Source: a virus. Taken from it: 21,559 nt of DNA. Of the stretch, positions 1 to 9,865 are shown piece after piece; within the stretch, counting starts at the first letter, position 1; each line of letters starts with the position of its first letter. The DNA lies in the IMG/VR virus record IMGVR_UViG_3300008218_000068, positions 1 to 21,559 of that record. One strand, 5' to 3'. The notes below the pieces were generated by a model. It searched no databases. It worked only from the letters and a program-made list of their open reading frames with translations, and was not told the origin of the DNA. The position numbers and the translations under genes are program-made.

Positions 1-417
1 GAGCTGCAAATGGGATGCGATGTTGAGGAGGTTGGCTTTATCCTGCACCCTGAGCGTGATGATATTGGCCTTTCGCCAGATGGCATTATTAATAGTGGCG
101 TTAAAGCTGTTGAGATTAAATGCCCTAAAAGCCCTACACATATCGAATATATGCGAAGTGGCACAGTGCCAAAGAAATACCTCTTTCAATTGGCCGCGTA
201 CTTTCTAAATATTCCACAATTAGAAACAATTGATTTTGTTAGCTATGATGAGCTAAATGAGGTTAAATGCTTAAGCGTTGCAACACTTACGCTTGATGAT
301 ATTTTAAAAATGGAGTATCTGAAAAATAAAACTATCGGCAGTATGGAAAACCTGAAAGAAAAAGTTTTCGATTTTGCTGATTCAATTCACACTGAATACA
401 ATAACTTAGTTTTTTAA
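1..417 (+). CDS. YqaJ/lambda exonuclease-like recombinase, 3' part
   Basis: This is the C-terminal part of a phage 5'-3' exonuclease of the YqaJ/lambda-Exo (PD-(D/E)xK) fold, which resects double-stranded ends for phage recombination. The frame is open to the left edge of the window, so the true start lies outside; a first internal ATG occurs at position 10. Visible motifs are SPDGI (the metal-binding Asp) at about residue 22 from that ATG, VEIKCP (the E-x-K pair) at about residue 34, and a QLAAYFL helix typical of the family. The gene ends 12 bases before ssb, so the two probably form one recombination/replication unit. The family call is good; the exact subfamily is not determined. Confidence 0.85.
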   Translation, partial: ELQMGCDVEEVGFILHPERDDIGLSPDGIINSGVKAVEIKCPKSPTHIEYMRSGTVPKKYLFQLAAYFLNIPQLETIDFVSYDELNEVKCLSVATLTLDDILKMEYLKNKTIGSMENLKEKVFDFADSIHTEYNNLVF

Positions 418-429
418 GGAGCTATAAAA

Positions 430-873
430 ATGAGAGGCGTAAATAAAGTAATAGTCGTAGGTAATTTAGGTCAAGACCCTGAAAGCCGTTCTTTTCCCGA
501 TGGCGGCACTGTCACAAATATAAGTGTTGCTACTTCTGAATCATGGAAGGATAAGAATACAGGGCAACAGCAAGAGCGTACCGAATGGCATCGCGTAGTG
601 TTTAAGCAGCGTCTTGCAGAAATTGCAGCTCAGTATCTTAAGAAAGGCTCTAAGGTTTATATTGAGGGTAAGCTCCAAACCCGCAAATGGACTAACCAAC
701 AAGGGCAAGATCAGTACACGACAGAAATACAAGCGCGTGAAATGCAAATGCTTGATAGTCGCGAAGGTGCAGGTGCTCAGGGTGGTTATCAGCAACAAGC
801 ACCACAACAACAGCAAGCCCCTCAAGCAGCCCCTCAAAGCGCTGACAACTTCGATGACGACATTCCATTTTAA
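430..873 (+). CDS. ssb: single-stranded DNA-binding protein
   Basis: A 147-residue bacterial-type SSB. It coats single-stranded DNA during phage replication and recombination and recruits partners through its C-terminal tail. The OB fold is recognisable: it opens [18 protein letters not shown], followed by the TEWHRVV and [11 protein letters not shown] segments at about residues 52-88. A Gln/Ala-rich linker spans about residues 118-138, and the protein ends in the acidic partner-binding tip DDDIPF. Length and architecture are normal for the family. A TAAGGAG ribosome-binding site overlaps the stop of the exonuclease gene, which supports this start and co-expression of the two. Confidence 0.97.
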
Positions 874-884
874 AGGTGAAACAG

Positions 885-1289
885 ATGATTGATGATAGTG
901 AGCAAGCAGAGATTAATGCGCGAGTTGTAAGACTTGGAACTCAAGAAACAAAAACAAAAAAACGCCTTAAGGTTGTTGAGGAGCGTTTAGCGGTATTTGA
1001 AAAGACCGATGTAGAGGAGTACTTAGATCAAATAAGGGCTGACGTTGTAGAGGTACACAGCCAGTATCAAATGCTGATAATGAAAACAACAACGCTTACA
1101 GAGCTACGTTACTTTCTAAAAGGTGATATAGAGCGCCAGAGTAGAATTATATCAGGCGCTATTTCTTGCTTTGATATGCCTGATGAGTGGTGGCGAAACA
1201 CAGAAGCTATGACATTACTTGACCTTTGCAATACTTTTGATAAGATAGGCAAAAACCAGTATGAAATAGCATCAAAAACATTAAATTGA
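885..1289 (+). CDS. coiled-coil protein of unknown function
   Basis: A 134-residue charged, mostly helical protein; I do not recognise a family. The N-terminal half (about residues 8-75) is rich in heptad-like Lys/Glu/Leu and is probably a coiled coil. The C-terminal half contains a DEWWRN segment at about residue 102. I chose the ATG at 885 because AAAGG at 872-876, which overlaps the ssb stop codon, lies 8 bases upstream of it. A GTG at 876 in the same frame would overlap that ribosome-binding site. Position directly after ssb suggests a replication or recombination accessory role, but this is context only. Confidence 0.8.
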   Translation: MIDDSEQAEINARVVRLGTQETKTKKRLKVVEERLAVFEKTDVEEYLDQIRADVVEVHSQYQMLIMKTTTLTELRYFLKGDIERQSRIISGAISCFDMPDEWWRNTEAMTLLDLCNTFDKIGKNQYEIASKTLN

Positions 1290-1297
1290 GGTGATTT

Positions 1298-1498
1298 ATG
1301 GCAAGGCCAGATAATGATATTTTTAATAGGCATGGGTTTGTTGGTGAGACTGATAAAAAAGTAACACTTGATATTAACGCACACACAGAGGCTTTTTTAG
1401 CTTCTGGTGGCGTTATTGAAGACTGCGGTAGTTACAATGATGATAATATTGTAACAATGGTTGACAGTAATGGTTGGTTTAACTGGGGTGAGGAATGA
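1298..1498 (+). CDS. small hypothetical protein
   Basis: A 66-residue acidic protein with no recognisable family. The start has a GAGGTG ribosome-binding site overlapping the previous stop, and the stop overlaps the start of the next gene as ATGA, so it is translationally coupled on both sides. There is no Cys cluster, membrane segment or signal peptide. It ends with an aromatic NGWFNWGEE segment. Confidence 0.7.
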   Translation: MARPDNDIFNRHGFVGETDKKVTLDINAHTEAFLASGGVIEDCGSYNDDNIVTMVDSNGWFNWGEE

Positions 1499-1653
1499 AA
1501 AAAATTACTATACCTAGAGGCTGGCTTGGCATTAAGTACAACGCTAACCCTAAAGTAGGTGAGTTCTATATAACTAGTAAGGGGTTTGTTAATCAGTGTA
1601 CGGTTAAAGGTGAGGCTGTGAATAAAACCATAGTAAAGCGTTTAAAGCGATAA
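1495..1653 (+). CDS. tiny basic hypothetical protein (52 aa)
   Basis: A 52-residue, strongly basic protein starting MKKITIPRGW and ending IVKRLKR. The ATG overlaps the stop of the preceding gene (ATGA) and a GTGAGGA ribosome-binding site lies just upstream, so it looks genuinely translated although short. Its TAA stop lies inside the left arm (CGATAAC, 1648-1654) of an attC-like stem-loop, a layout typical of integron cassette genes. The left side shows no convincing cassette boundary, so it may equally be a backbone gene. Function unknown; a nucleic-acid-binding role is only suggested by its charge. Confidence 0.65.
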   Translation: MKKITIPRGWLGIKYNANPKVGEFYITSKGFVNQCTVKGEAVNKTIVKRLKR

Positions 1654-1703
1654 CAAAACAATTAACAGGCAGCTATGCTGTCACGTTCAATGAAGAGTTA
1701 TAG
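1648..1703. repeat. attC-like recombination site, first of three
   Basis: A 56-base imperfect palindrome with integron attC architecture. Outer arms are CGATAAC (1648-1654) and GTTATAG (1697-1703), with 4-base spacers on each side. The inner arms are 1659-1673 and 1677-1692 around a TAT loop (CAGC pairs with GCTG, AAC with GTT, ATT with AAT). Two unpaired bases, T and C, fall on the right inner arm in nearly the same places as in the third site (2111-2166). It shares shape with that site but little sequence. The expected cut would be between G1697 and T1698. No U-tract follows, which argues against a terminator. Confidence 0.6.
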
Positions 1704-1840
1704 GCTGTTCACTACACTAAACCGTACATTAGTAATGCACAACTAAAAATAATGTACGGAGTATACTTATGATCAGTATAACCCTTAGCTCAGTTTTTGG
1801 CGTAAGCGCCAGCGAAACGACAATCAAATGCAGCGTTTTG
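1698..1840. mobile_element. putative ORF-less integron-type cassette
   Basis: A 143-base unit between the expected cut points of the first and second attC-like sites. The right box of the first site (GTTATAG) and the left box of the second (GTATAAC) pair over 6 bases (TATAAC). Each site's own two boxes pair over only 5, so the boxes match better across the unit, as expected for an excisable cassette. It contains the 10-bp inverted repeat at 1722-1759 and no convincing coding sequence; a 39-codon frame at 1769-1888 is rejected. Its identity depends on the attC calls. Confidence 0.45.
1722..1759. repeat. 10-bp inverted repeat in an ORF-less unit
   Basis: CCGTACATTA (1722-1731) and TAATGTACGG (1750-1759) are perfect inverted copies separated by 18 bases. 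They lie in the 143-base segment 1698-1840 bounded by two attC-like sites, where I find no credible gene. It could be an operator for a dimeric regulator or an RNA hairpin. A TATACT at 1762-1767 resembles a -10 box, but I see no good -35 partner. Confidence 0.6.
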
Positions 1841-1846
1841 TTATGC
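1776..1846. repeat. attC-like recombination site, second of three
   Basis: A 71-base element with outer boxes GTATAAC (1776-1782) and GTTATGC (1840-1846) and 4-base spacers. The inner arms are weaker: GCT, CA and TTT on the left side pair with AAA, TG and AGC on the right. An internal hairpin GGCG-TAAG-CGCC (1799-1810) would act as the variable terminal structure. An unpaired C on the right arm matches the position of the unpaired C in the other two sites. The expected cut is between G1840 and T1841. Confidence 0.55.
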
Positions 1847-2160
1847 GCTGCTACGGAGAATAGAGATGGGAATACAGACGACTTATAGGGTGCATATTAT
1901 GTACTCAACAGACCTTAGCGCACATGAAGATGATGAACTAGAGCGAAAACTAATGCTTGAGGGTGTAGCTAAAAAATCAGATAGGATGGAACATTGCCTT
2001 ATGTTTAACTATGTAGATGCCCTATTTACAGACCACGAGACAGCTAAAGAGTACCACCTACAAGCAACAAACATTATTAAAAATGAGTTTGGCGGGGAAA
2101 TTCTTTAAGCGCATAACAGGTATTAAACCGACAGCTTTAGCTGTTCGGTTCTAATCAGTG
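1841..2160 (+). mobile_element. integron-type gene cassette (320 bp) with one ORF
   Basis: The unit runs from TTATGCGC, just after G1840, to G2160, the expected cut points of the flanking attC-like sites. It holds one ORF starting 25 bases inside and stopping 2 bases before the left box of the right-hand site, the usual compact cassette layout. The decisive sign is cross-pairing of the unit's ends: AGCGCATAAC (2108-2117) is complementary over 10 bases to GTTATGCGCT (1840-1849). The two boxes within the right-hand site pair over only 6 bases, and those within the left-hand site over 5. Circularisation of the excised unit would therefore rebuild a fully paired site. No integrase gene is present in the window. 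Confidence 0.7.
1866..2108 (+). CDS. cassette-borne hypothetical protein (80 aa)
   Basis: An 80-residue protein, predicted soluble, with mixed alpha/beta character. It opens with a beta-like segment (TTYRVHIMYS), continues with a charged helix (EDDELERKLMLEG), and has a second strand and helix containing LFTDHETAKEYH. I do not recognise a family. The start follows a CGGAGA ribosome-binding site at 1854-1859. It is the only gene in the unit bounded by attC-like sites, and its stop codon nearly touches the right-hand site. Cassette proteins are typically small and orphan, which fits. Function unknown. Confidence 0.75.
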   Translation: MGIQTTYRVHIMYSTDLSAHEDDELERKLMLEGVAKKSDRMEHCLMFNYVDALFTDHETAKEYHLQATNIIKNEFGGEIL

Positions 2161-2166
2161 TTATGT
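2111..2166. repeat. attC-like recombination site, third and best of three
   Basis: A 56-base element. The left box is GCATAAC (2111-2117), followed by a 4-base spacer AGGT. The left arm ATTAAACCGACAGCT (2122-2136) is followed by a TT loop and the right arm 2139-2155. A 4-base spacer CAGT and the right box GTTATGT (2160-2166) complete it. The arms form 15 base pairs interrupted by two single unpaired bases, T and C, both on the right arm. Single bulged bases on one arm are the hallmark of attC folding. In the well-known aadA1 site the bulges lie on the left arm of the top strand, so by this criterion the site would point leftward although the ORF reads rightward. No T-run follows, so it is not a rho-independent terminator. 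Confidence 0.72.
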
Positions 2167-2230
2167 ATAAAAGTTTGACTATTGTTTGTTGTGGGTATAT
2201 TCTTACTTGTAGAAATAAGGAGAAAGAAAA

Positions 2231-2503
2231 ATGTTACCTATTTATAAATGCAAAGCTTACTCAAAAAAAATAAGCAGAAAATATGAAGTAGCCAAACTCA
2301 AAGATTTTGTGAAATCAGCATACCCTGATGACAATGCAACCCTATCGGAGTTCATGGCATCTTTATTTGTAAGCAAAAAAAAGGCATCTGAAGCAATTAG
2401 CGATTTAATCTATATCGCTGAATGTCAGAGCGCTTACACGTTACACATTGCAAAACAGCCGCTTCTAGCTCATTGCGATCTTATGCACAAGGATGGTAAT
2501 TGA
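2231..2503 (+). CDS. hypothetical protein (90 aa)
   Basis: A 90-residue basic protein without a recognised family. It has a Lys-rich start (YKCKAYSKKISRKYEVAK) and a central predicted helix pair (LSEFMASLFVSKKKASEAIS), compatible with a small DNA-binding or antirepressor-like helical fold, but no helix-turn-helix call can be made by eye. A strong AAGGAG ribosome-binding site at 2217-2222 supports the start. It is the first gene after the attC-like array and its stop overlaps the next start as TGATG. Confidence 0.75.
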   Translation: MLPIYKCKAYSKKISRKYEVAKLKDFVKSAYPDDNATLSEFMASLFVSKKKASEAISDLIYIAECQSAYTLHIAKQPLLAHCDLMHKDGN

Positions 2504-2691
2504 TGTACTTGCTTTTCCAGAGTATTGATGGGGTTATGGTTGCCACTCACTCTAGCTCAGACATAGAGAGTATTTTGGGTGAGTATAATGCCGCTATAGA
2601 GTCAGGTGTTACCTCTCTAAAGGTTGGTGAGTTTAGAGAGATTTATGATTTTAAAAACAAAAAAACAAAGTATAATGAGAACCCCTTGTAG
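2503..2691 (+). CDS. hypothetical protein (62 aa)
   Basis: A 62-residue protein starting MYLLFQSIDGVMVATHSS, with alpha/beta character and no recognised family. The chosen ATG at 2503 overlaps the stop of the upstream gene (TGATG); a TTG one codon earlier is less likely. GGATGG upstream could serve as a ribosome-binding site. It is probably co-translated with its upstream partner. Confidence 0.65.
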   Translation: MYLLFQSIDGVMVATHSSSDIESILGEYNAAIESGVTSLKVGEFREIYDFKNKKTKYNENPL

Positions 2692-2813
2692 CTCACTGCT
2701 ATTGCCCTCTCCTCTTTAGTGGGTGGGCGCAAGGTTTTTAGAGGGTGGTCAACGACCTTCATACAAGTTTAGCCCGCTTGCCTCGAAAAGGGCCACCAAC
2801 AATGGAGAGAGTT
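2692..2813. other. non-coding gap before the sulfotransferase gene
   Basis: About 120 bases, G/C-richer than their surroundings, with pyrimidine-rich then purine-rich stretches. CCCTCT (2705-2710) and AGAGGG (2740-2745) are inverted but 29 bases apart, and GGTC-AAC-GACC near 2747-2757 is a small hairpin. Neither is a convincing terminator. The stretch may hold a promoter or leader for the sulfotransferase gene, but I cannot identify one. Confidence 0.35.
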
Positions 2814-4226
2814 ATGAATATACACGAAAAAGCGTTGCAGTTAACCGTATCTGAGCGTTATGCAGAAGCAATACCTTACATCAAGCAAACCTTAAAACTT
2901 ATACCTAAAAGCGCTGAGATGCACGCATCTTTAGCTATGTGCTACATGAATTGCAGCCAGTTAACCAAGGCTGAGAACGCAATTTCAAAAAGCATAAAAC
3001 TAAACCCCAGCAATGCTATAGCAAAACTGATACGCGCCGATATAGCCAAAAGAAAAGGGCTATTAAAATCATCCGAACACAACATAAAAGAAGCGCTAAG
3101 ATTAAGCCCTGATAATGCCGCTGTGCTAGCTTTCTACGCTAATTTGCTTATTGAGAAGGGCGATATGAAGGGTGCAGCGAAATACGCTGACAAAGCAGAA
3201 GAGGTAGACCCAGAGAAGGGCTTAGAGTGTGCAATACTAGCCTCAAACTTTCTTAAAGCCACAAAAGATAGCAAGCATTTTAAAAAGCTACAAGATGAGT
3301 TTAATGAGGATCTTCCACAAAAAAACCTAATACCCGCAGCCTTTGCGCTTGGTAAGTGTTTTGATGAGGTTGGTGAGTATGATAAGGCTTTCAAATATTA
3401 CGAGATAGGCAACACGCACAAAGCCGCCCAGCTTATCCTAAATAAAACACCAAGCGACCCAGAAGCTCACAGCGCATACGTTAAAAGCATCATCAAGCTT
3501 ATGCCTGATTATCTAGTCTCAAGCAATACAGGCAAGGGCAACAACTCACAAGAGCCTATTTTTATCGTGGGAATGCCTAGAAGTGGAACAACGCTAGTAG
3601 AGAGCATTATTACAGCTGGTGATGTGGTTGCGGGTGGTGAGCTACCGCACTTCTCAACAATTGCACACACATTCAACTACCCTGATACAGATAATGAATT
3701 TAACTCATTTGATTTTGCTAAGCTTGGTAAGCAATACCTAGATAGAACGGGTTTAAGAGGTGCTAGATTCACCGACAAACTACCAAACAACTTCCATTTT
3801 TTAGGGCTTATTCGCCTTTGCTTTCCTAATGCAAAGGTAATCCATGTAAAACGAAACCCTTACGATACATGCCTAAGTATGTATTTTAATAACTTTACAT
3901 CACTAAACTACACAAACAACCTAGAGCATTTAGGTGTTTATTATAATGATTACATGGATTTAATGGAGCATTGGCGAGGCTGTGTTGATTTCTATGAAAT
4001 TCAATACGAAACCCTTATAGAGCATCAGGAGGAGGAGACAAGAAACCTTATTAACTATTGCGGCCTTGAATGGAATGATTGCTATATGGAGCCTCATAAA
4101 AACAATAGGCGAGTATCAACCGCAAGTATGCAACAGGTTAGAGAGCCTGTTTATAAAACAAGCAAACATAAGCACAAGAAATATGAAAAACATCTTGACT
4201 CTTTAATTGAAACAATTATGGTATAG
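2814..4226 (+). CDS. TPR-repeat sulfotransferase
   Basis: A 470-residue fusion of N-terminal tetratricopeptide repeats (about residues 5-150) with a sulfotransferase domain (about 245-470). Such enzymes transfer sulfate from PAPS to a hydroxyl or amine on a glycan, protein or small molecule. The PAPS-binding 5'-phosphosulfate loop is clear (FIVGMPRSGTTLVESII, about residue 249), as is the 3'-phosphate motif (VIHVKRNPYDTCLSMYF, about residue 342). I chose ATG 2814 because GGAGAGAG sits just upstream, like the next gene's AAGGAGAGAG. An in-frame ATG at 2802 and a GTG at 2745 are possible but lack such a site. It is a cytoplasmic accessory gene, and its substrate is unknown; host or phage surface glycan is a guess. 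Confidence 0.9.
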   Translation: MNIHEKALQLTVSERYAEAIPYIKQTLKLIPKSAEMHASLAMCYMNCSQLTKAENAISKSIKLNPSNAIAKLIRADIAKRKGLLKSSEHNIKEALRLSPDNAAVLAFYANLLIEKGDMKGAAKYADKAEEVDPEKGLECAILASNFLKATKDSKHFKKLQDEFNEDLPQKNLIPAAFALGKCFDEVGEYDKAFKYYEIGNTHKAAQLILNKTPSDPEAHSAYVKSIIKLMPDYLVSSNTGKGNNSQEPIFIVGMPRSGTTLVESIITAGDVVAGGELPHFSTIAHTFNYPDTDNEFNSFDFAKLGKQYLDRTGLRGARFTDKLPNNFHFLGLIRLCFPNAKVIHVKRNPYDTCLSMYFNNFTSLNYTNNLEHLGVYYNDYMDLMEHWRGCVDFYEIQYETLIEHQEEETRNLINYCGLEWNDCYMEPHKNNRRVSTASMQQVREPVYKTSKHKHKKYEKHLDSLIETIMV

Positions 4227-4237
4227 CTAAACCATAA
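4216..4237 (+). repeat. 7-bp hairpin over the sulfotransferase stop codon
   Basis: TTATGGT (4216-4222) pairs with ACCATAA (4231-4237) around an 8-base loop that contains the sulfotransferase stop codon. The right arm touches the AAGGAG ribosome-binding site (4236-4241) of the next gene. In mRNA it could partly mask that site. No T-run follows, so termination is unlikely. Confidence 0.45.
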
Positions 4238-4247
4238 GGAGAGAGAT

Positions 4248-4484
4248 ATGAAAACAACTTCTAACCTAGAACGATTAATAGCCGATAAGTTTAAAACAGG
4301 TAACTCAACACCTGTAGACCGTATAACCATTACGCGAGCAGAATATGAGGCCACAGACCAAAAGCTAACCGAGCAAAGCGATAGCTTTATATCAGGCCAA
4401 GAATTCTTAGACGCAATGAATGACATGTCTAATCATACTGATGAAATAGATAAGGCGCTGAATATCGAAGCACTGGAGCAATAA
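4248..4484 (+). CDS. small acidic hypothetical protein (78 aa)
   Basis: A 78-residue acidic, helical protein with no recognised family (starts MKTTSNLERLIADKFKTG). The AAGGAGAGAG site 3-12 bases upstream strongly supports the start. It sits between the sulfotransferase and HNH genes with one base before the next ATG, so it is coupled to the HNH gene. Confidence 0.75.
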   Translation: MKTTSNLERLIADKFKTGNSTPVDRITITRAEYEATDQKLTEQSDSFISGQEFLDAMNDMSNHTDEIDKALNIEALEQ

Positions 4485-4485
4485 C

Positions 4486-4941
4486 ATGACAGATAAGAAG
4501 CTAAAGCCATGCATTGTTAAGGATTGCTGCAAGATTGCAAAGAAGGGCGATAAATATTGCTCAATGCATCGCGCAAGACTTACACGCACCGGCAGGCTTG
4601 ATAAGAAATCTTTAGGCGAGAAGCTTACTGATAATATCAAGTTAGTTAATGGTTGTTGGGAGTGGCAGGGATTCAGGAATCGTGGCGGGTATGGTCGGCT
4701 AAGAGTCTCAGGCCGAAAAATGCTAGCTCACAGGGCTTCATACGTTGAGTTTGTAGGTGAGATTCCAGAAGATAAAATTATATGCCATACATGCGATAAC
4801 CCTTGCTGTATAAACCCTGCTCATTTATGGGTGGGTACACACAAAGAAAATTATGATGACGCTTTAGCTAAAGGTCGTGTTGACCCAGTTGCAAGAGCCT
4901 TGAGGAGATGGGAATTATGTCCAACATTCAAAAAAGCGTAG
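4486..4941 (+). CDS. HNH homing-type endonuclease
   Basis: A 151-residue phage HNH nuclease, free-standing in the accessory region. An N-terminal zinc-binding segment has C9-x4-C14 and YCSMHRARL with Cys26 and His29. The catalytic region follows: NGCWEWQGFRNRGGYGRL, then LAHRASYVEFVG, then CHTCDNPCCINPAHLWVGT (about residues 100-118), which holds the conserved Cys pairs and the Asn and His of the HNH core. Such enzymes nick or cut DNA and can mobilise themselves or neighbouring genes. The last 10 residues or so overlap the next gene in another frame and look unlike the family's usual end, so the C-terminus may have been altered at the junction. Confidence 0.92.
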   Translation: MTDKKLKPCIVKDCCKIAKKGDKYCSMHRARLTRTGRLDKKSLGEKLTDNIKLVNGCWEWQGFRNRGGYGRLRVSGRKMLAHRASYVEFVGEIPEDKIICHTCDNPCCINPAHLWVGTHKENYDDALAKGRVDPVARALRRWELCPTFKKA

Positions 4942-5495
4942 AGCTTGCTCCATGCCCGTTTTGTGGAGCAGATGCAGAAATTGCTGAATGCGCTGACACT
5001 CATGCAGGCGAAATTCAAAAAAAATGGTTCACGCCTAAATGCTTTTGGGATAACTGCCTAAGCTTAAATGGCATGTATGGAAGCTATGATGATGCATTAG
5101 AGGCATGGAACACCCGCCAAGATACCAATAGCGATGAAGTGCGTGAAGTTTTAGAGCTACTAGAAATGGAAGCCAAAAAAGTAAAAGAGCTTAGGGCGCG
5201 AGAGCGTAAGTTACTTGGTGTGCTTGATGTTGCGCTAGGTGATTATCAGGAATACAAAGCAGCCGCAATTTTAAATGAATTAAAAGCTTTAAACACCCTC
5301 CCCACTACTAAAAGCACTGAATGGATAGCAGTAAGCGAGCGATTGCCTGAGTACGATTTACCAACATTTTATGGCGTGATTGAAGATTTAAAAGACACTT
5401 ATATCAAGAAGAAAATATACGATTTAAGTAACACAGAAATCACAATTATATTAAACGCTTTTTGGCAAGCGTCAACCCCACCAGAGGCTAAGTAG
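4917..5495 (+). CDS. Lar-like zinc-finger protein with DUF551-like C-terminus
   Basis: A 192-residue multi-domain protein. The N-terminal 60 residues match the Lar (restriction alleviation) zinc-finger pattern: LAPCPFCGADAEIAEC, a second Cys pair, and DDALEAWNTRQ. A coiled-coil linker spans about 65-110. The C-terminal part (STEWIAVSERLPEYDLPT ... FWQASTPPEAK) resembles DUF551 proteins common in phage accessory regions. Rac Lar is known to modulate type I restriction; that function is not shown here. I chose ATG 4917, 9 bases after GAGGAG, over ATG 4908, which abuts it. It overlaps the HNH gene by 25 bases. Its last codons lie within a 29-base repeat found again at 6369-6397. Confidence 0.75.
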   Translation: MSNIQKSVELAPCPFCGADAEIAECADTHAGEIQKKWFTPKCFWDNCLSLNGMYGSYDDALEAWNTRQDTNSDEVREVLELLEMEAKKVKELRARERKLLGVLDVALGDYQEYKAAAILNELKALNTLPTTKSTEWIAVSERLPEYDLPTFYGVIEDLKDTYIKKKIYDLSNTEITIILNAFWQASTPPEAK

Positions 5496-5501
5496 ATGAG
5501 T
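5473..5501 (+). repeat. gene-junction repeat, copy 1 (29 bp)
   Basis: This segment (CAACCCCACCAGAGG followed by CTAAGTAGATGAGT) is identical to 6369-6397. The last 19 bases also match the copy at 5666-5687. It encodes the C-terminal tail PPEAK-stop plus the next ATG, and marks a recombination-like joint between genes. Confidence 0.85.
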
Positions 5502-5678
5502 ACAATATTATGTTGGCATAAATGGTCTAAATGGTCAGAGATTGTTTCTTGCAACGATCGCCCATATCAATTTGCAAGCTGTGATAAGTGCAATAAGATT
5601 ATAAGAAGGGGTGTTTGCCTGACAAATAACGGCGTAAACCCTTCTTTATGGAATAAGAAACCAGAAGAGGCTAAGTAG
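5496..5678 (+). CDS. small Trp/Cys-rich zinc-ribbon-like protein (60 aa)
   Basis: A 60-residue protein beginning MSTILCWHKWSKWSEIVSC and carrying CDKC-x-KIIRRGVC. The Cys pairs suggest a small zinc ribbon, and the HKWSKW start is a motif I associate with tiny phage zinc proteins. No function is known. Its ATG follows directly after the TAG stop of the gene upstream, and both ends lie in copies of the AGAGGCTAAGTAGATGAGT junction repeat. Confidence 0.7.
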   Translation: MSTILCWHKWSKWSEIVSCNDRPYQFASCDKCNKIIRRGVCLTNNGVNPSLWNKKPEEAK

Positions 5679-5687
5679 ATGAGTGAA
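5666..5687 (+). repeat. gene-junction repeat, copy 2 (22 bp)
   Basis: AGAGGCTAAGTAGATGAGT plus GAA is identical to 6379-6400. It codes for the tail PEEAK-stop and the next start, in the same frame as copy 1. Confidence 0.8.
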
Positions 5688-6065
5688 TTAAAAGCAAAAG
5701 AACTAAAGTCAAAAATTGAAAGAAAGGATAGATACATTTTGGATATGTCTGACAAGCTACGTAAGTTTGGTGATGAGCTAATTAATTCCAGTGATGACAT
5801 TGAAAGAATAAAAATGAAAATGAAGCGCAATAAACTTGAGTTTAGTGGAGATTTTCACGACATGAAGACCCTATGTTTACAGTTAATAGAGGCGGAAAAA
5901 TTAAACGATATTCTTGATGCTATCGCTAACAATATTGGGTATGAGCTTACTAGCCAATATGTTTGCGGAGGTGCTAATTGTTCAGCAGAAAATGGATTAG
6001 ACCATTCTCCAGAGTGTGTTTTAGAGCATGAATTAACAGTAAAAGGAGTCAGCGATGAAAGTTGA
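5679..6065 (+). CDS. coiled-coil protein with C-terminal Cys cluster (128 aa)
   Basis: A 128-residue protein. Residues 1-50 are a Lys/Glu-rich coiled coil. The middle, LQLIEAEKLNDILDAIANN, is helical, and a C-terminal cluster YVCGGANCSAENGLDHSPEC with a nearby His could bind zinc. No family recognised. It begins inside the junction repeat and overlaps the next gene by 11 bases. AAGGAG for the next gene lies within its 3' end. Confidence 0.7.
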   Translation: MSELKAKELKSKIERKDRYILDMSDKLRKFGDELINSSDDIERIKMKMKRNKLEFSGDFHDMKTLCLQLIEAEKLNDILDAIANNIGYELTSQYVCGGANCSAENGLDHSPECVLEHELTVKGVSDES

Positions 6066-6387
6066 CTACAACGATGTTAAAGAAGATTACGCAAGGCTTA
6101 ACGCTGAAATATCCTCACTAACCCAAGAGCTAGAAGAGGCTAAGGCTTTTCAGGAAATAGCAATAGCTGATAACGCTCGCATGATAGAGAAGTGCAATAA
6201 ATACTATGCCGAAATCGAACAACTCAAACAATCCCCTGATGCTGTAGTTATGCCTGAAGTAATTACCGATGTTTTACGCAATAGTTACAACGCAAAAGCA
6301 CTAGCTTGTGAAATATGGACTGTAGACGATGCCTGTAGAGCCGTTGAGCAGTTTTGCAAAGCCCTTACCAACCCCACCAGAGGCTAA
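6055..6387 (+). CDS. coiled-coil mosaic protein A (110 aa)
   Basis: A 110-residue protein with an N-terminal coiled coil. It contains SSLTQELEEAK (residues 20-30) and EIEQLKQSPDAVV (53-65), both encoded by DNA identical to parts of the next gene. The 65 bases between them are unrelated but of the same length. The tail KALTNPTRG is read in a different frame through the 29-base junction repeat that gives PPEAK upstream. An AAGGAG ribosome-binding site at 6042-6047 supports the start. Function unknown; proteins with this coil-plus-variable-tail design are common in phage accessory regions. Confidence 0.75.
   Translation: MKVDYNDVKEDYARLNAEISSLTQELEEAKAFQEIAIADNARMIEKCNKYYAEIEQLKQSPDAVVMPEVITDVLRNSYNAKALACEIWTVDDACRAVEQFCKALTNPTRG
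6110..6145 (+). repeat. coil repeat A, copy 1 (36 bp)
   Basis: Identical over 36 bases to 6528-6563 and in the same frame of each host gene; it encodes SSLTQELEEAK. Confidence 0.92.
6211..6248 (+). repeat. coil repeat B, copy 1 (38 bp)
   Basis: Identical over 38 bases to 6629-6666; it encodes EIEQLKQSPDAVV. It lies 101 bases after repeat A, exactly as in the second copy. Confidence 0.92.
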
Positions 6388-6397
6388 GTAGATGAGT
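6369..6397 (+). repeat. gene-junction repeat, copy 3 (29 bp)
   Basis: Identical to 5473-5501, but entered in another frame so that it encodes NPTRG-stop instead of PPEAK-stop. It leads into the ATG at 6392. Confidence 0.88.
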
Positions 6398-6826
6398 GAA
6401 ATATTCGAGACAGCTAAAAACCTAACAAAAGCAGAGTACGAGAAAGCTTTAGATTTCACTAATGATACTGACCATATTTATTTTTTAATGCGTGTATGGG
6501 CTGAGAAGCAATCCTTAGAGCTTAGACTATCCTCACTAACCCAAGAGCTAGAAGAGGCTAAGGTTGAATCAAAAATGTATGAAGATGCGTCAGTAGCATT
6601 TTATAACGACACGCTTGCTCTTGAAAAAGAAATCGAACAACTCAAACAATCCCCTGATGCTGTAGTGGCCATGCCTGAAGAAATTACAGCAGAAGCAAGC
6701 ATCGCCTTAAATCACGCTATAGGTAATGCTAGAAGGGCAAGTAATACTACGTTACAAGAGGATATGTCGAATATTTACCAAGCAATACGCAAAGCCCTAA
6801 CCAATAACGCAGATAAGGAGAATTAA
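6392..6826 (+). CDS. coiled-coil mosaic protein B (144 aa)
   Basis: A 144-residue paralogue-like partner of the preceding gene. It has a new N-terminal 45 residues, then the shared SSLTQELEEAK coil (46-56), a same-length but unrelated core, the shared EIEQLKQSPDAVV (80-92) and MPE-x-IT, a new helical tail, and the common KALTN end. A purine-rich AGAGG overlapping the previous stop is the likely ribosome-binding site. The perfect DNA identity of the shared blocks next to unrelated DNA points to recent recombination rather than simple duplication and drift. Function unknown. Confidence 0.75.
   Translation: MSEIFETAKNLTKAEYEKALDFTNDTDHIYFLMRVWAEKQSLELRLSSLTQELEEAKVESKMYEDASVAFYNDTLALEKEIEQLKQSPDAVVAMPEEITAEASIALNHAIGNARRASNTTLQEDMSNIYQAIRKALTNNADKEN
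6528..6563 (+). repeat. coil repeat A, copy 2 (36 bp)
   Basis: Second identical copy of 6110-6145. Confidence 0.92.
6629..6666 (+). repeat. coil repeat B, copy 2 (38 bp)
   Basis: Second identical copy of 6211-6248, followed in both genes by a near-match encoding MPE-x-IT. Confidence 0.92.
6799..6820 (+). repeat. stop/RBS junction repeat D (22 bp), with copy at 7449-7470
   Basis: AACCAATAACGC followed by AGATAAGGAG occurs identically at 7449-7470. Shorter versions at 7068-7089 and 7700-7721 share GCAGATAAGGAGTAAGACG plus ATG. All supply an AAGGAG ribosome-binding site to the following gene. Confidence 0.88.
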
Positions 6827-6827
6827 A

Positions 6828-7082
6828 ATGGGAATGGTTACAGATGTAGAATGGACTTGCCCTAAGTGCGAGACTAAAAATATAGCTCAGTTATACGATG
6901 ACTGTTATCCCGTTGGCTATTTTAATAGAGATGGAAAGCCTGACCCGCTACCACATACAGCAATACCCTCTGACGCATCACTAAAATGGAATCCACCTTG
7001 CGAGGGTTGCGGCGAGTACAAACTATCTAACCCTGTTGTGCGGTTAGTTGAATTTCCAATTATTTGGGCAGATAAGGAGTAA
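6828..7082 (+). CDS. zinc-ribbon-like small protein (84 aa)
   Basis: An 84-residue protein with two Cys pairs, WTCPKCETKN near residue 10 and PCEGCGEYKL near residue 60, probably forming one zinc site. Between them is a Tyr/Pro/Asp-rich loop. The AAGGAG site of junction repeat D lies 7 bases upstream of the ATG. No family recognised. It may bind nucleic acid or serve as a protein adaptor, by analogy only. Confidence 0.72.
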   Translation: MGMVTDVEWTCPKCETKNIAQLYDDCYPVGYFNRDGKPDPLPHTAIPSDASLKWNPPCEGCGEYKLSNPVVRLVEFPIIWADKE

Positions 7083-7086
7083 GACG

Positions 7087-7245
7087 ATGGATAAGTGGGA
7101 GTGTTTGTTTTGGGTTGCAATATTCGTATTAATTGTAACCTACGGTGTGATGCTTGGCTTTTTAACAAAGGTTGCCCATGAAGAGTGCGGCGGATGGTCA
7201 CAATGTTTTGAATTAGCAGATAAGGACACAACCAATGAAAGATAA
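7087..7245 (+). CDS. single-span membrane protein (52 aa)
   Basis: A 52-residue protein with one hydrophobic segment (LFWVAIFVLIVTYGVMLGF, about residues 6-24) followed by a polar tail with two Cys. The start at 7087 follows AAGGAG by 7 bases; a longer reading from upstream would have no ribosome-binding site and would overlap the previous gene. The last 11 bases overlap the next gene. The membrane segment is clear; the role is unknown. Confidence 0.68.
   Translation: MDKWECLFWVAIFVLIVTYGVMLGFLTKVAHEECGGWSQCFELADKDTTNER
7221..7245 (+). repeat. start-junction repeat (25 bp), with copy at 7890-7914
   Basis: TAAGGACACAACCA plus ATGAAAGATAA occurs identically at 7890-7914. It contains an AAGGA ribosome-binding site and the start codon of the genes at 7235 and 7904. 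Confidence 0.9.
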
Positions 7246-7450
7246 GAGTGAAAAGAACGAAAGATATTTAACGATTGAATCTGATGATGGCCGCATCAAA
7301 AGCGGAATAAATAGAATCTATGTAGGCGATGAAGATCAATTAAGCTTTAGATGGATGGACACAGGAGCTAAGGATAGTGAATTCCCTTGCCTGTATTACG
7401 CTATCGAGCGCATTGCAGAGCTAGAACAAAAGCTATCAGAATTCATTTAA
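7235..7450 (+). CDS. hypothetical protein (71 aa), possibly truncated
   Basis: A 71-residue protein that starts MKDKSEK and ends ELEQKLSEFI. Both its start junction (7221-7245) and its end (7422-7446) recur at 7890-7914 and 8028-8052 in the gene at 7904. In that gene the reading frame continues past LSEFI for over 40 more residues; here it stops and junction repeat D begins. It therefore looks like a recombined or truncated relative with its own middle. No family recognised. Confidence 0.65.
   Translation: MKDKSEKNERYLTIESDDGRIKSGINRIYVGDEDQLSFRWMDTGAKDSEFPCLYYAIERIAELEQKLSEFI
7422..7446 (+). repeat. LEQKLSEF-encoding repeat, with copy at 8028-8052
   Basis: A 25-base segment with one mismatch to 8028-8052, encoding LEQKLSEF in both genes. 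It marks the point after which the two genes diverge. Confidence 0.85.
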
Positions 7451-7476
7451 CCAATAACGCAGATAAGGAGTAGGGC

Positions 7477-7698
7477 ATGAAGAAGCCTAAATGTTTTTAT
7501 GCTAAATGGGAGTCTAGCGGTTATGTTGTTAGGTCTGCATGGCAAGGTGATTTTCGTGTTGCTAGCTTTGTAACTGAGATAGAGGCCGAAGATTATGCCG
7601 ATTACAGAAATTGTATGCTATTAGCTTTTGATGATTCTGGTACAAGAAAGTATAAAAAATTCAGAACACTGAAGCGAATCAAAGAGTTTAATCAATAA
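7477..7698 (+). CDS. hypothetical protein (73 aa)
   Basis: A 73-residue basic, aromatic-rich alpha/beta protein (KCFYAKWESSGYVVRSAW, then FVTEIEAEDYADYRNC). No family recognised. AAGGAG from the second full copy of junction repeat D lies upstream of the ATG, and its own 3' end runs into another copy of that repeat. Confidence 0.72.
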   Translation: MKKPKCFYAKWESSGYVVRSAWQGDFRVASFVTEIEAEDYADYRNCMLLAFDDSGTRKYKKFRTLKRIKEFNQ

Positions 7699-7718
7699 CG
7701 CAGATAAGGAGTAAGACG

Positions 7719-7892
7719 ATGTTAAGCGATAAAGAGGCAGGGATTGATTGTAGCGAGTGTGGACATAAAGAAACTGTTGACTCGCAAGACCAAATGGAAG
7801 CATTAAAGCAGAAGCTAGAGTGGAATGATTTTGGCGACCCTTTTTGCCCTGTGTGTGGTGATACTGTTTGGTTTGAAGATTACCTAGATTAA
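7719..7892 (+). CDS. two-CxxC zinc-ribbon protein (57 aa)
   Basis: A 57-residue protein with CSECGHKE at residues 11-18 and CPVCGDTVWF at residues 43-52, a compact rubredoxin- or zinc-ribbon-like arrangement joined by a Gln/Lys-rich helix. The ATG follows the AAGGAG of a junction repeat by 8 bases, and its stop overlaps the AAGGA of the next. It is short but well supported by its motifs and signals. Function unknown. Confidence 0.72.
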   Translation: MLSDKEAGIDCSECGHKETVDSQDQMEALKQKLEWNDFGDPFCPVCGDTVWFEDYLD

Positions 7893-7903
7893 GGACACAA
7901 CCA

Positions 7904-8188
7904 ATGAAAGATAATAATGAAAAACCACAACACCAGATGGCTGCAATAGATTTAATAGTTACTAAAGGTGACGGAGTTGCACTACCGAACCAAAAACAAG
8001 CTATCCATGACTTTAAAGAACAGTGCTTAGAACAAAAGCTATCTGAATTCATACCCAAAGCAAAGCTAGTTGAGTGGCTAAAGGATGTTAAGAATACGCC
8101 TTGGGTACAGGTTGATTGGGAAAATAGTACTAAAGAGTCATTCGTTAAAGTCTCAGACCTACTACAAGCAATCGAATCGTATAGCTAG
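7904..8188 (+). CDS. hypothetical protein (94 aa)
   Basis: A 94-residue protein starting MKDNNEKPQHQ with the shared LEQKLSEFI segment at about residues 42-50, followed by a helical and Trp-rich tail (LVEWLKDVKNTPWVQVDWE). It resembles the uncut form of the gene at 7235. The start uses the AAGGA of the duplicated 25-base junction. No family recognised. Confidence 0.7.
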   Translation: MKDNNEKPQHQMAAIDLIVTKGDGVALPNQKQAIHDFKEQCLEQKLSEFIPKAKLVEWLKDVKNTPWVQVDWENSTKESFVKVSDLLQAIESYS

Positions 8189-8199
8189 GGGGTGATTAG

Positions 8200-8281: not shown

Positions 8282-9865
8282 ATGAGTGTAGGGAGAGGAA
8301 AAAAAGGTGTATGTGTTGTAAATGATGATAGCAGGCCAGAATGTGCCAAGTGTGGCGGGTTTTGCAAATCGAATGGGCATGAATGGAAGTGTACAGACTG
8401 TGGAAAGCGAATAAGAAAGAAAGCGAACCTTAAAAACATTGAAGAGGCTGGATTTGCTAAGGCTGGATATGATGTGGAAAGCGCCGAGCAAAGAGCAAAG
8501 AGCATTAAGGCTAAGTATAAAAAGGGGTGTAGGTCGTTTGTTGTTACATCAGCTCAAAATAATACAGGTGAGTTTAAGGCGTTTCTCAAAGCTCTAAAAG
8601 TCTACTGCAAACAAAGAAAAGCCGAATTGATTGTAATACCCGTTCATTATAAAAATGCAAACTCATGGAATAAAGACACCGAAAAGCAATGGAGCGGCGA
8701 GCTAGAGCCTTATTTGGTTCATGGTGATATTAGCTTAGGACACGTATTAATACGCTCACACATCAAAATAGAAGCCCCTAGCATTAACCCCTTACAAGGC
8801 AAGCAGTCTCACGGCGGCAATAAGTGGACTGTGTTTGGTAATGCTCAGCACGCAATGGAGCCAGTAGCAACGCCTGCTGATTTAATGCCTAAGCGCATGT
8901 ACACAACAGGCAGTGTAACTAAGAGAAACTATTCTCAATCAGATAGGGGTGCTAAGGCTGACTTTAACCATGTTTTTGGTGCGCTTACAATCAACTTTGT
9001 TAAAGGTTCCGATATTCCTTTTATCAGGCAGTTAAACTCTGATGATATGGGTAACTTTTACGATTTAGATAAGCGATACACACCCAAGGGAATAACAAAA
9101 GATCACCGCATAAAAGCCTTAACAACAGGCGATGAGCATGTGATGCATAATATAGTAGCTAAGGAAACATACCTAGCTAAAAACTCAATAGCCAAAAAAC
9201 TAAAACCAGAATACATCGTAAGGCATGATGTTTTAGATGGTTATGCTGGGAGTCATCACCATGAAAAAATGCCCCTTGTACAGTTTAAGAAATTTATTGA
9301 GGGTACTAATTGCTACAGATCAGAGCTTAATGAGTGCATACGATTCATCGATAAAACAACACCTGCTTACTCTACTAATATCCTTGTTGATAGCAATCAC
9401 CACTCTCATCTTGACAAGTGGCTGGATAGGGCTAACCCTAATAAGGATTTTACTAATACCGAGCTTATACATGAGCTTAGGGCTTTGCAATTTGATAATA
9501 TTAGGAATAAGATTGATAAGAACGCATTTCAAATATACTTAGAGCCAAGGCTTAAAAGTAAGACGCGGTTTATAGGTAGGAATGAGCACTTTTTGATAGG
9601 TGATGTGGATGTGTCTCAACATGGCGATGTGGGCGCAAATGGTAGTAGAGGCTCAGCAAATGGCCTTGCTAAAAGCACCTACAAGATGACCATAGGACAC
9701 TCCCATTCAGCCAGAATAGTGAAGGGTGTGTATCAGGTTGGTACGAGTACAGGTAAACTGGAATACGAGCAAGGGCTATCAGATCACAGCAATACGCATT
9801 GCATCCAGTATAAAAATGGCAAAAGGACTCTTTTAGATATAATCAACGGTAAATGGTGTGAGTGA
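8282..9865 (+). CDS. zinc-ribbon metallophosphoesterase-like protein
   Basis: A 527-residue protein. An N-terminal zinc ribbon (C21-x2-C24 and C37-x2-C40) is followed by a Rossmann-like region starting RSFVVTSAQNNTGEF near residue 84. The C-terminal half carries an ordered set of calcineurin-like phosphoesterase motifs: GDEH (283-286), RHDVLDG (314-320), VDSNHHSHL (369-377, in place of GNH[D/E]), SQHGDVGANGSRG (445-457) and GHSHSARI (472-479). All expected metal-ligand positions are occupied, so an active di-metal nuclease or phosphatase is likely. Large phage proteins of this kind, T5 A1 among them as I recall, act early against host DNA; that link is tentative. GAGGG lies 8 bases upstream of the start, and its stop overlaps the next gene. 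Confidence 0.72.
   Translation: MSVGRGKKGVCVVNDDSRPECAKCGGFCKSNGHEWKCTDCGKRIRKKANLKNIEEAGFAKAGYDVESAEQRAKSIKAKYKKGCRSFVVTSAQNNTGEFKAFLKALKVYCKQRKAELIVIPVHYKNANSWNKDTEKQWSGELEPYLVHGDISLGHVLIRSHIKIEAPSINPLQGKQSHGGNKWTVFGNAQHAMEPVATPADLMPKRMYTTGSVTKRNYSQSDRGAKADFNHVFGALTINFVKGSDIPFIRQLNSDDMGNFYDLDKRYTPKGITKDHRIKALTTGDEHVMHNIVAKETYLAKNSIAKKLKPEYIVRHDVLDGYAGSHHHEKMPLVQFKKFIEGTNCYRSELNECIRFIDKTTPAYSTNILVDSNHHSHLDKWLDRANPNKDFTNTELIHELRALQFDNIRNKIDKNAFQIYLEPRLKSKTRFIGRNEHFLIGDVDVSQHGDVGANGSRGSANGLAKSTYKMTIGHSHSARIVKGVYQVGTSTGKLEYEQGLSDHSNTHCIQYKNGKRTLLDIINGKWCE

Follow-up and report, generated by a model that had tools for sequence, protein, structure and literature searches.

A probable cluster of inverted, integrase-less gene cassettes in a P22-like marine podovirus

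The 80-residue gene and the attC sites around it

The window, that is the whole stretch of 21,559 nucleotides analysed here, corresponds to positions 1 to 21,559 of the IMG/VR virus record IMGVR_UViG_3300008218_000068 and belongs to a podovirus-like phage. YqaJ nuclease, SSB and HNH are encoded in it, together with a P22-type packaged-DNA stabilisation protein sharing ~27-32% identity with named phages among the matches listed. A search for relatives with the SSB returned a sole close relative, the sister contig IMGVR_UViG_3300025286_000164 (G001), which is 99.9% identical to the window across positions 1-7472 and adds 10.3 kb upstream; a nucleotide search of the region against phage records gave no match. 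The early region of the phage also encodes, at 2817-4226, a sulfotransferase domain fused to TPR repeats. At 5450-8190, very small + strand ORFs follow one another in series with near-identical repeats at their junctions (GAGGCTAAGTAGATGAGT; AACGCAGATAAGGAGTAAGACGATG; TAAGGACACAACCAATGAAAGATAA), and a segment missing from the sister contig (~7473-7686) has its breaks inside junction repeats of this type.

As predicted from the sequence, an ORF of 80 residues lies on the + strand at 1866-2108, and its stop codon falls 2 nt short of a hairpin at 2111-2166. No homologue of the protein was found in phages, plasmids, Pfam or PHROGs. In IMG/VR the gene was retrieved from the sister contig only, and no phage carrying a homologue without attC-like sites was encountered. 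A single-sequence structure model of the protein was poor (pLDDT 48.7). An Rfam match of the region to snR40 (24.7 bits) fell under the gathering score and was attributed to chance. On one side of the gene stands a 52-aa ORF (1495-1653, +), an array member or flank, whose stop codon lies within the + strand left box CGATAAC (1648-1654) of a further site. On the other side, 3' of the hairpin, the array is flanked by a 90-aa ORF (2231-2503, +), upstream of which a promoter-like TTGACT-17-TATATT was recognised by eye at 2175-2203.

Two attC covariance models were used. R1 derives from 29 bacterial sites whose variable terminal part was removed and whose polarity was taken from the neighbouring intI; R2 derives from 73 other viral sites, the studied phage being left out. 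Both are home-made models with a shortened calibration, distinct from that of IntegronFinder, and their E-values are rough. R1 recovered the non-seed phage arrays L174 and L176 on the expected strand, returned nothing at E<1 on 15 other viral loci and gave no match on P12002L. R2 produced 2 matches at E<1 in 798 kb of other viral DNA, and its pairs covary far above controls in the viral set, in an alignment that was itself fitted to structure.

Within the window, R1 matched 2111-2166 only, with 12.8 and 12.6 bits on the two strands (E ~0.2). This match is unconvincing alone, so significance rests on the viral model and on the sister contig, where R1 reached 27.3 bits (E=1.5e-5) and 19.8 bits (E=0.002). 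The top three R2 matches of the whole window are site 1 (1648-1703, 18.0 bits), site 2 (1776-1846, 25.8 bits, E=1.5e-4) and site 3 (2111-2166, 15.0 bits). The original prediction had placed two attC-like sites beside the ORF, and both exist, the right-hand one (site 3) by its fold and the left-hand one (site 2) by its R2 score. It had overlooked site 1, which is 89% identical to the sister-contig site 9330-9386, and the window holds at least three. A 39-aa ORF (1770-1888) runs uninterrupted across site 2.

Site 3 folds much as had been claimed: besides the R boxes it forms a stem of 14 bp, one arm of which carries single-base bulges. The hairpin has a free energy of -13.2 kcal/mol and a z of -4.9, and none of 200 shuffles was equally good. 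At site 2 the attC shape differs from the minimum-energy fold, and the minimum-energy folds of sites 1 and 2 are attC-like only poorly or not at all. These poor folds, the placement of the hairpins 3' of stop codons and the modest scores of sites 1 and 3 taken singly (both <20 bits in R2) would suit phage regulatory or terminator elements that merely resemble attC. We consider such an origin very unlikely: a low-background model built from other sites matches the hairpins, comparable sites flank a transferred cassette exactly at G^TT (see below), no T-run is present in the sequence downstream of site 3, and the two ends of the unit are complementary.

This last property had been singled out in the original prediction. 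AGCGCATAAC (2108-2117) pairs with GTTATGCGCT (1840-1849) over 10 bp, against 5-6 bp for the pairing within either site. The same excess is found in bacterial arrays, where the ends of a cassette pair over 8.53 bp versus 5.33 bp within a site (n=97, p=1e-12), and in viral arrays, with 7.0 versus 4.95 bp (n=60, p=5e-7). Judged on sequence, the 10-bp pairing is the usual mark left by cassette circularisation, and a marked example of this general rule.

About nine further sites were found by R2 in the sister contig, at 17-48 bits, the best scoring 48.4 bits (E=3e-10) and seven lying at 26-48 bits. They are located at 1098-1153, 1541, 1809, 1997, 2271-2321, 3970, 8852, 9123 and 9330-9386, the polarity of the last being ambiguous, and alternate with small ORFs and NinB-/NinG-like genes (translations read by eye). 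The phage thus has roughly 12 attC sites in total, in three separate clusters. In the locus L086, NinG- and NinB-like genes (3087-3671 and 4084-4560) lie among attC sites, suggesting cassette build-up within the nin region; the first-cluster cassettes of this locus begin alike (1780-1812, 2245-2277, 2545-2575), with GTTATGTGTGAGTTACGGGAGGAG, which contains a ribosome site.

Polarity of genes relative to attC

Polarity was scored with a test anchored on stop codons, in which a gene ends either at the R'' box (canonical) or at the other edge of the site and on the opposite strand (inverted). This test superseded one based on the longest ORF, which had given canonical to inverted ratios of 51:4 for bacterial and 10:28 for viral sites with many ambiguous GC-rich cases. 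Viral contigs were picked in IMG/VR with two attC patterns that are indifferent to gene direction. Their viral status is that of the IMG/VR classification, with hallmark genes confirmed for part of the contigs; phage head, terminase, tail and replication genes were found in the part of the set that was checked. Also counted among the controls are the arrays of L174 and L176, both prophage-type phages.

Bacterial genes end at the R'' box of their own attC, whereas most genes on viral contigs end at the opposite edge and on the opposite strand. Bacterial and control arrays together gave 82 canonical and 3 inverted sites, with 9 scored as both and 25 as neither, while the viral contigs gave 14 canonical and 57 inverted sites, 12 both and 16 neither (82:3 versus 14:57, Fisher 2.6e-25). 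About one fifth of the viral sites are canonical; counted per viral contig, 28 are inverted, 7 canonical and 3 tied. Additional chromosomal sites, for which the strand of reverse-stored loci was set by hand, were canonical in ~19 cases versus 1 inverted.

In the studied phage, the nine ORFs counted all stop at the edge expected of an inverted cassette, whichever way they are transcribed (window 1495-1653 and 1866-2108; sister contig 1148-1333, 1589-1789, 1851-2000, 2054-2251, 2323-2547, 8630-8857 and 8850-9128). At the sister sites 1098-1153 and 2271-2321 an opposite-strand ORF is also compatible with canonical polarity, and the reading direction of the phage was taken as that of the gene. In the studied phage, as in most phage arrays, the genes run antisense to the attC top strand. 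No description of inverted phage cassettes was found in the literature, as covered by open-licence papers.

These results bear on the limits of the mobile unit, which the original prediction had drawn as a canonical cassette made of the 80-residue ORF and the right-hand hairpin, with its top strand on +. Site 3 would permit this reading, as its two strands score nearly equally in R1 (given above) and in R2 (15.0 bits on -, 14.6 on +), and the end pairing is compatible with either polarity. Site 2, however, is assigned to the - strand (25.8 versus 8.3 bits) and so is site 1 (18.0 versus 8.9 bits), most sister-contig sites are antisense to their genes in R2, and the position of the single-base bulges of site 3, in the + right arm, suggests that its top strand is -. 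A gene in the same sense as the attC top strand, followed by its attC, is the usual though not strictly defining arrangement of a cassette, and it is not the one found here; we hold the canonical unit to be quite unlikely.

Since the polarity of attC opposes that of the gene, and by analogy with the transferred cassette described below, the most likely unit is instead 1782-2116 (-), bounded by the G^TT cut of site 2 and that of site 3 in the - strand reading and composed of site 2 and the 80-aa ORF. The hairpin of the 80-aa gene would then probably be the upstream one, and the two segments complementary over 10 bp (1840-1849 and 2108-2117) are the ends of this predicted cassette. A second predicted cassette, of 128 nt and devoid of an ORF, would span 1654-1781 (-), its limits being the site 1 and site 2 G^TT cuts as placed from the boxes 1648-1654 and 1776-1782; it contains a GTACATTA/TAATGTAC stem.

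No intI was detected in the window or the sister contig by tblastn with IntI1, in a record that is possibly incomplete, and the intI and attI of a complete integron are accordingly not both at hand. The absence of an integrase, together with sites that have lost a box (the sister site 1997 reads CATAAA and 2566 has no clear right end), would be expected if the cassettes had been taken from a bacterial integron and had since decayed into an immobile relic. The ORFs are nevertheless intact, and a fragment taken over from bacteria would be expected to keep the canonical polarity of bacterial cassettes (82:3), which makes a relic unlikely in our view. The region combines three sites lying close together, two of them at >=18 bits with the home-made models, R''/R' boxes, AAC/GTT cores, paired arms of which one carries extrahelical bases, cassette ends complementary past the boxes of their own sites and no intI nearby with the IntI1 query. 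It is thus probable that it forms part of an inverted, integrase-less cassette cluster (CALIN) of a P22-like marine podovirus. The central proposal of the original prediction, an integron-type cassette inside a phage genome, is upheld by the R2 matches, the sister-contig sites and the end pairing.

Cassette movement and a proposed mechanism

Two phage contigs, L281 and L292, have in common a 651-bp unit of 94.5% identity and no other detectable similarity. The unit consists of a single attC together with a Mom-like gene (phrog_1384) whose ORF is inverted, and the similarity stops exactly at the G^TT of both flanking attC sites. The upstream hairpin moves together with the gene, matching the prediction for inverted polarity. 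A blastn search with one sister-contig attC against phage records gave no useful match. No empty counterpart of the array in the studied phage was found, the SSB search having returned the sister contig as sole close relative. Integron integrases are present in 131 of the 296 genomes of one gammaproteobacterial order, marine genera included. On the viral contig L291, a gene resembling integron integrases (926-1897, 51% identical to IntI1) lies beside attC sites.

We propose that each cassette consists of an upstream hairpin and the ORF that follows it, the recombining bottom strand being the coding strand of the phage. An integron integrase supplied in trans by the host would fold this bottom strand and cut it at G^TT, and cassettes could in this way be inserted or removed during infection. 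Their genes would be expressed via the phage operon, each with its own ribosome site. More tentatively, inverted polarity combined with genes co-directional with replication would make the bottom strand part of the lagging-strand template, and phages may favour the inverted orientation as the mobile one. In Vibrio cholerae, shifting attC bottom strands to the lagging-strand template increases cassette excision (PMC11023631).

The sign of the GC skew flips near 8 kb of the sister contig, between divergent modules, and near 10.5 kb of the window. The switch is compatible with an origin there, and gene direction explains the skew equally well. This confounding leaves room for an inversion that arose for a reason other than replication, such as the way cassettes are formed or selection on insertions, to which we give slightly less than an even chance; nothing direct speaks against it, while the excision of V. 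cholerae cassettes does depend on strand placement (PMC11023631). The broader model is, in our estimate, evenly balanced between right and wrong. It holds that phages keep their own, intrinsically inverted cassette pool, moved between phages by host integrases and carrying phage genes such as those for Mom-like DNA modification, with inversion ensuring that the strand which recombines is the coding strand and lagging template. If the reversed orientation is systematic, phage cassettes would be more than bacterial cassettes taken over by phages, and a separate gene-exchange network would be running on bacterial integrases. The origin of the cassettes and the control of their mobility by the replication strand become testable.

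Comparison with known systems

Phage carriage of cassettes, put forward in the original prediction, is supported here but is not itself new, because the part of Qi et al. 2023 (PMC9892861) considered here reports 17 phage CALINs and recombination with IntI1 for 5 of 6 tested phage attC sites. In that same part the cassettes of PH101 and TJE1 are called same-direction, and no discussion of gene polarity relative to attC was found. The CALIN of Tetrasphaera phage TJE1 is also a phage-borne attC array, but with attC and genes both on +, and is thus canonical. Cassette insertion outside integrons, of the attG type (PMC12901181), would account for insertion without attI; the studied phage offers no definable insertion site.

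The lytic Pseudoalteromonas phage PH101 (record H101, NC_029094) carries four attC on + with the CDS there on -, an inverted arrangement. It resembles the studied phage in its integrase-less attC arrays, its small ORFs without known function and its antisense polarity. The studied phage differs in being an uncultured podovirus with three separated clusters. Finally, the sedentary chromosomal integrons of the Vibrio/Alteromonadales type have in common with it the attC architecture, the complementarity of cassette ends and a single small ORF per cassette, but their genes are sense to attC (82:3), whereas those of the studied phage are antisense and no intI was found with them.
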